Part shown: positions 33,512-33,658 of the stretch, piece by piece | Layout of the letters: each line of letters opens with the position of its first letter | How positions within the stretch are numbered: the first letter of the stretch is position 1 | DNA from: Protofrankia sp. CiT1 | GTDB lineage: Bacteria > Actinomycetota > Actinomycetes > Frankiales > Frankiaceae | Length of the DNA: 36,582 nt | Direction: 5' to 3' | Assembly: GCF_917627385.1 (NCBI RefSeq) | Contig: NZ_CAKJTL010000041.1 | Coordinates: 54,191 to 90,772, forward strand | Program-made: the position numbers and the translations under genes | The notes under the pieces: model-generated | Database searches by the model: none | Seen by the model: only the letters and a program-made list of their open reading frames with translations | Told to the model about the DNA's origin: nothing

Positions 33512-33540
33512 TTCACAAATCCTACGTAGCGTGGTAGAAA
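33512..33540 (+). promoter_or_regulatory. promoter of the tRNA-like gene
   Basis: TTCACA (33512-33517) matches the -35 consensus at five of six bases, and TAGAAA (33535-33540) is a plausible -10 box after a 17-base spacer. The start of the tRNA-like gene is 18 bases downstream. The spacer contains CCTACGTAG, related to the centre of the upstream dyad. Confidence 0.55.
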
Positions 33541-33558: not shown

Positions 33559-33633
33559 GCCGGTGTATCCCAACAGGCAGAGGAGGCTGTCCTAAAAACA
33601 GCTCGAGTGTCGGTTCGACTCCGACCACCGGCA
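33559..33633 (+). tRNA. unusual tRNA-like gene, apparent anticodon UAA with C33
   Basis: A 75-base cloverleaf can be drawn. The acceptor GCCGGTG (33559-33565) pairs with CACCGGC (33626-33632), discriminator A. A three-pair D stem (TCC/GGA) has GG in its loop, the anticodon stem is GCTGT/ACAGC (33586-33590, 33598-33602), and the T arm is GTCGG-TTCGACT-CCGAC. The anticodon loop is CCTAAAA, giving anticodon UAA (codon UUA), but position 33 is C instead of U. The variable loop is only about six bases, unlike leucine tRNAs. CCA is not encoded. It may be a non-standard, suppressor-like or non-translating tRNA; identity is open. Confidence 0.75.
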
Positions 33634-33658
33634 CATTCGCGTGCTCTCGGCACCTGGT

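Follow-up and report, generated by a model that had tools for sequence, protein, structure and literature searches.

A gene for a tRNA-Leu(UAA) that carries C rather than U at position 33 (C33) and has a short variable region lies on the forward strand at positions 33559–33633 of the window, the whole 36,582-nt stretch of DNA analysed here. The assignment is based on ARAGORN, the Rfam tRNA family RF00005, covariation and the presence of the gene in 32 of 35 Frankiaceae genomes. We judge it very probable that the product works as an elongator tRNA and is the one leucine tRNA with which the Frankia lineage can read UUA codons. U33 makes the U-turn of the anticodon loop, and for this reason elongator tRNAs are taken to carry it almost without exception; some tRNA tools assume it. 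For example, the profiling rule TXXX(A/G) builds in U33 (PMC6297222) and would therefore discard this RNA.

Identity and structure of the tRNA gene

A first-pass annotation had described a complete tRNA-like gene with C33, the anticodon UAA and a short variable arm, all of which are confirmed by the sequence, by ARAGORN and by RF00005. Within the window, ARAGORN predicts a single tRNA (33559–33634, anticodon TAA), and the covariance-model check proposed earlier gives 47.2 bits for 33559–33633, well above the RF00005 gathering score of 29, such that the RNA belongs to this family. A separate Rfam scan of the whole window at the gathering threshold missed the tRNA, apparently because of the speed filters of that scan; the scan of the short sequence is 18 bits above the cut-off.

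All stems of the RNA are closed, including the acceptor stem (GCCGGTG/CACCGGC), and the T arm reads GTCGG-TTCGACT-CCGAC. The positions that form tertiary contacts are U8, A14, A15 with U48, and G18G19. A73 follows the acceptor stem at 33633, and CCA is not encoded. The anticodon stem-loop (33586–33602, forward strand, as for all features given here) consists of the stem GCTGT/ACAGC (33586–33590 and 33598–33602) and a 7-nt loop, CCTAAAA (33591–33597), which comprises C32, C33 (33592), the anticodon TAA (33593–33595), A37 and A38. This loop is identical in all Frankiaceae copies of the gene, so that none has the U33 of a canonical elongator, and the anticodon UAA within seven loop nucleotides is that of a tRNA-Leu(UAA). 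The variable region is the six-nucleotide, class I sequence TCGAGT (33603–33608), located where a leucine tRNA usually has a long arm; in class II tRNAs this region exceeds about 10 nt and forms a stem.

The RNA folds better than shuffled sequences (z −2.4), but conservation and covariation are the decisive evidence, more so than this score. An alignment of 18 short UAA tRNAs, including examples with C33 and with U33, has 99.7% of its cells paired (shuffled mean 79.5%), and 14 of 20 pairs exhibit changes on both sides (shuffled mean 7). Because all five anticodon-stem pairs are among these 14, the loop boundaries are secure. A shifted anticodon, CCU (Arg), was rejected on the same grounds, since covariation in the stem leaves CCTAAAA as the seven loop nucleotides.

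These data also bear on the proposal that the locus is a decaying pseudogene or gives rise to a tRNA-derived RNA that acts outside translation, which we regard as very improbable. The altered U33 is the one feature in its favour. Against it are the retention of U8, A14, G18G19, the T loop and A73, the strong covariation, the near-identity of the gene across the family and the fact that no other UAA tRNA was found. The broken stems and sequence divergence of a pseudogene are absent, given 97–100% identity in 32 genomes and 99.7% of alignment cells paired. The earlier suggestion of a non-translating RNA is likewise disfavoured, given that no other UAA tRNA turned up and that conserved genes contain UUA codons.

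Conservation and genomic setting

A DNA search of 97 relatives recovered the gene at 97–100% identity in 32 of the 35 Frankiaceae genomes, with C33 and the loop CCTAAAA every time, so that the search for conserved orthologues proposed earlier is answered in the affirmative. The three other genomes comprise one with a long-armed UAA tRNA carrying U33 (G010, locus L152), one with a UAA tRNA fragment that has U33 and fits the short-armed pattern (G006), and one fragmented assembly (G003). A sequencing error concealing a normal tRNA had been raised as a concern, and an assembly error was rejected, since the identical C33 occurs in dozens of genomes, complete ones included. The same C33 gene, with a conserved promoter-like sequence in front of it, recurs in 32 of 35 genomes, which excludes both a pseudogene and a sequencing error.

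The promoter-like sequence consists of a −10-like hexamer, TAGAAA (33535–33540), within the conserved block CCTACGTAGCGTGGTAGAAA, and a −35-like hexamer, TTCACA (33512–33517), which reads TTCCCA in most other genera. The block and the TTCMCA hexamer 17 bases before TAGAAA are kept across genera, whereas the 3′ flank of the tRNA diverges. Judged from this pattern of conservation, the upstream block is a putative sigma-70-type promoter with a predicted start a few bases 5′ of the tRNA.

The source genome (5.02 Mb) is distributed over 191 contigs, and the window spans positions 54191–90772 of contig C41. Upstream of the tRNA gene lie eno, divIC, a DUF501 gene, ppx/gppA, a uracil-DNA glycosylase gene and an NADH dehydrogenase-like gene, and the downstream neighbour is a Bax-inhibitor-like gene. 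A plasmid search gave no match.

ARAGORN, applied to all tRNA-like loci of the source genome, yields 41 distinct tRNAs on the bacterial contigs, of which exactly one has the anticodon UAA and the other 40 all carry U33; this set is incomplete because some expected tRNAs (for example, Asp and Phe) were not recovered. In four complete Frankia genomes (G012, G008, G009 and G016), a pattern search (TAAA or TTAA, then a T loop) recovered no second UAA tRNA. The comparison with a standard tRNA-Leu(UAA) that had been proposed therefore takes another form: the source genome has no separate standard gene, and the gene at 33559–33633 is that tRNA.

Two contigs of the same assembly, C139 and C140, carry plant-organelle-type tRNAs (L022, L023, L028, L029, L065, L066, L068, L070 and L074) at about 48–50% GC and are probably leftover host plant DNA.

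The short variable arm is class-wide

In Actinomycetia, UAA tRNAs are either long-armed (bldA-like) or short-armed, the latter normally with U33, and tRNA-Leu(CAA) is short-armed in many members of the class, including the source genome (L078). The first-pass annotation considered the variable loop too short for a leucine tRNA, a view that does not hold for a class in which short-armed tRNA-Leu is widespread. Alignment with other short-armed tRNA-Leu(UAA) and tRNA-Leu(CAA) of Actinomycetia (L163, L142 and L078) reveals a common D arm (CCCAA..GGCAGAGG), variable regions of 5–6 nt, and a common T arm and A73. The difference resides in the anticodon loop: these three RNAs have U33 (CTTAAAA/C or CTCAAAC), whereas the tRNA described here has C33. 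In a class sample of Leu(UAA) and Leu(CAA) tRNAs, all non-Frankia copies exhibit U33, with loops CTTAAAA/C and CTCAAAC. The short variable arm was thus rejected as the main oddity of this RNA. It is ordinary because it occurs throughout the class, usually together with U33, and C33 is the departure.

The bldA tRNA has a long variable arm and U33, a form that is also seen in other class members (for example, L152 and L161) and that differs from the short arm and C33 observed here. Like the Streptomyces bldA tRNA-Leu(UAA) (PMC2000904, PMC4255298), the Frankia RNA carries the anticodon UAA and would be the only reader of the rare UUA codon in a high-GC actinomycete.

The source genome also contains a second short-armed leucine tRNA (L078, C98:991–1063), which has the anticodon CAA, an ordinary U33 and class-wide conservation. 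No long-armed Leu(CAA) tRNA was found in this genome.

C33 in other lineages

A pattern scan of 394 genomes of the class uncovered C33 in 32 genomes of Frankiaceae (family f1) and in 24 genomes of a second family, f17; three further C33 matches were judged to be chance. Within f17, 114 of 121 genomes matched, 64 with C33 and 50 with U33. In a named collection, C33 carriers among the matches listed include Nocardiopsis, Thermobifida, Streptomonospora, Actinomadura, Thermomonospora, Actinoallomurus, Trebonia and others. The C33 tRNA-Leu(UAA) of Nocardiopsis, Thermobifida, Actinomadura and relatives has the same loop (CCTAAAA), short arm and T stem (GTCGG) as the Frankia RNA, but differs in its anticodon stem (GGCCC/GGGTC and variants), its acceptor stem and its own-family history.

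On a LeuRS tree of f17, C33 occupies the deepest branch, an Actinomadura-like clade and a Nocardiopsis-like clade, and U33 is present in one large clade and in G377, which adjoins two C33 congeners. On this distribution, C33 probably arose early in f17 and has since reverted to U33 at least twice, or else was gained repeatedly. C33 in f1 and in f17 may have one shared origin. A sample of 396 genomes from the phylum adds two isolated cases, each in another class, with the anticodon stems GCGGT/ACCGC (G673) and GGCGG/CCGCT (G789), and these look independent. The outcome is a natural bacterial series in which the sole tRNA found for one codon has C33 and close relatives, even congeneric species, have U33. 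With such a series one can test directly what a non-U33 elongator costs, how the cost is compensated and whether the elongator has a regulatory use, and one f17 genus, g136, provides a natural test pair (U33 in G377, C33 in G478 and G459).

A search of the open literature found no report of a bacterial tRNA-Leu(UAA) with C33, and the nearest published statement concerns C33 in tRNA-Cys of Sulfolobales (PMC7668247). That RNA, tRNA-Cys(GCA), is likewise an elongator with C33 fixed in a clade, but it is archaeal, carries another amino acid and has no tie to a rare codon. Eukaryotic initiator tRNA-Met is also functional with C33 (PMC9023262), although as an initiator rather than an elongator.

Three further loci (L282, L309 and L310) in Rhodococcus sp. 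RD6.2, Rhodococcoides fascians A44A and an Actinophytocola metagenome-assembled genome consist of UAA tRNA 3′ halves with CCTAAAA and a degenerate 5′ half. These are possibly attachment sites of integrated elements.

UUA still aligns with leucine

UUA is very rare in these organisms, as was noted earlier, with a frequency of about 0.09 per 1000 codons in a Frankia sample. At all six Frankia TTA sites that can be aligned with homologues, leucine is the majority residue, although at two of them the comparison is solely with another TTA. Coverage is highest at ppx codon 104, which aligns with 32 Leu and 11 Met. Among f17 members with C33, two well-covered TTA sites are mainly Leu, and four other sites have only one to four homologues each. 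As read from these alignments, UUA still appears to specify leucine.

A tRNA of new specificity, as was suggested initially, would imply reassignment of UUA away from leucine. The short variable arm combined with an altered position 33 invites this reading, and the reassigned Ser(CAG) tRNA of Candida has G33. We nevertheless consider such reassignment extremely improbable: the UUA sites align with Leu, the short arm is common to tRNA-Leu(CAA) and tRNA-Leu(UAA) throughout the class, and A73 and A14 are kept. Nor is the RNA suppressor-like, as had also been proposed, because UUA, the codon complementary to its anticodon, is a sense codon rather than a stop codon.

LeuRS and the predicted route to decoding

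LeuRS proteins (L451, L456–L459) form two deep lineages. The long form is found in crown Frankia, Streptomyces and Mycobacterium, and the short form in G010 of Frankiaceae and in family f17, with G418 having both. No tie between C33 and LeuRS type was seen, given that C33 occurs with the long form (crown Frankia) and the short form (f17), and that U33 also occurs with the short form.

The tRNA belongs to the short-armed leucine tRNAs (anticodons UAA and CAA) that are spread across the actinomycete class; in crown Frankia, U33 gave way to C, which has since been kept. In the most likely scenario, a promoter of its own drives transcription, the CCA-adding enzyme supplies CCA, the LeuRS of the cell attaches leucine and the tRNA decodes the very rare UUA codons. 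Leucylation is a prediction, given that short-armed leucine tRNAs are without the long arm traditionally associated with leucine. C33 is the mildest substitute for U33. It would retain a pyrimidine at the U-turn and lose the U33 N3–H contact, and decoding would probably be slower. A slow UUA decoder should be cheap where UUA is nearly absent, and this low cost can account for both the tolerance and the long persistence of C33.

In the source genome, the sole LeuRS found in the assembly (L440, C42:17043–19478) has 818 amino acids and is 48% identical to the Streptosporangiales type. Four congeners encode LeuRS on frames of about 1026–1181 amino acids, situated about 20–27 kb from the tRNA gene when both are on one contig. 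L440 represents either a LeuRS replacement or a contaminating contig.

Possible consequences of C33 for UUA decoding

In yeast, a change at position 33 is reported to degrade translation markedly (PMC3664417), an effect difficult to reconcile with this tRNA being the sole decoder, except if UUA is rare or the RNA is modified at C33 once it has been transcribed. Editing of C33 to U, or another post-transcriptional alteration, would give the mature tRNA an ordinary loop and would account for a sole decoder encoded with C33. Bacterial precedent comes from TrcP, which converts C32 of Vibrio tRNA-Tyr (PMC9553926). We find this explanation quite improbable, at about the level of a long shot, as C33 occurs in four families and an editor would be needed in each.

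An unlikely alternative, though one that we take more seriously than editing, is that C33 is a selected brake, wherein slow reading of UUA throttles the genes that contain it, a counterpart to bldA control that operates through tRNA quality rather than supply. Consistent with selection, C33 is present without exception in crown Frankia and recurs in several lineages. Codon usage in f17 also points in this direction: TTA occurs at 0.070 per 1000 codons in C33 genomes and at 0.198 in U33 genomes, with similar GC3 (0.934 and 0.926, respectively). The TTA/CTA odds ratio for C33 versus U33 genomes is 0.34 (p 1e-4; bootstrap over units 0.15–0.62), and the corresponding values are 0.40 for TTA/TTG and 0.98 for CTA/CTG. 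UUA thus seems to be 2–3 times rarer in the C33 genomes, a difference that is no more than suggestive, because a simple GC-frame rule defined the ORFs and the C33 and U33 genomes form related clades.

Plain avoidance of a poorly read codon, however, predicts the depletion equally well. Furthermore, the ratios for ATA, GTA and AGA are also about 0.6, an earlier and smaller per-genome test (17 genomes) was not significant (p 0.11), UUA is present in housekeeping-type genes such as ppx, and according to the literature there is no UUA regulatory pattern outside Streptomycineae (PMC4255298). The preferred reading is still that of a working, probably slow, leucine elongator. A role as a regulator of UUA codon use, also suggested initially, is hypothetical. 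A wider possibility, which we rate as rather unlikely, is that position 33 of tRNA-Leu(UAA) serves as an evolved tuning knob in actinomycetes. Repeated changes from U33 to C would then slow UUA decoding or make it conditional, either directly or through regulated editing of C33, and so constitute a form of UUA expression control distinct from that of bldA.
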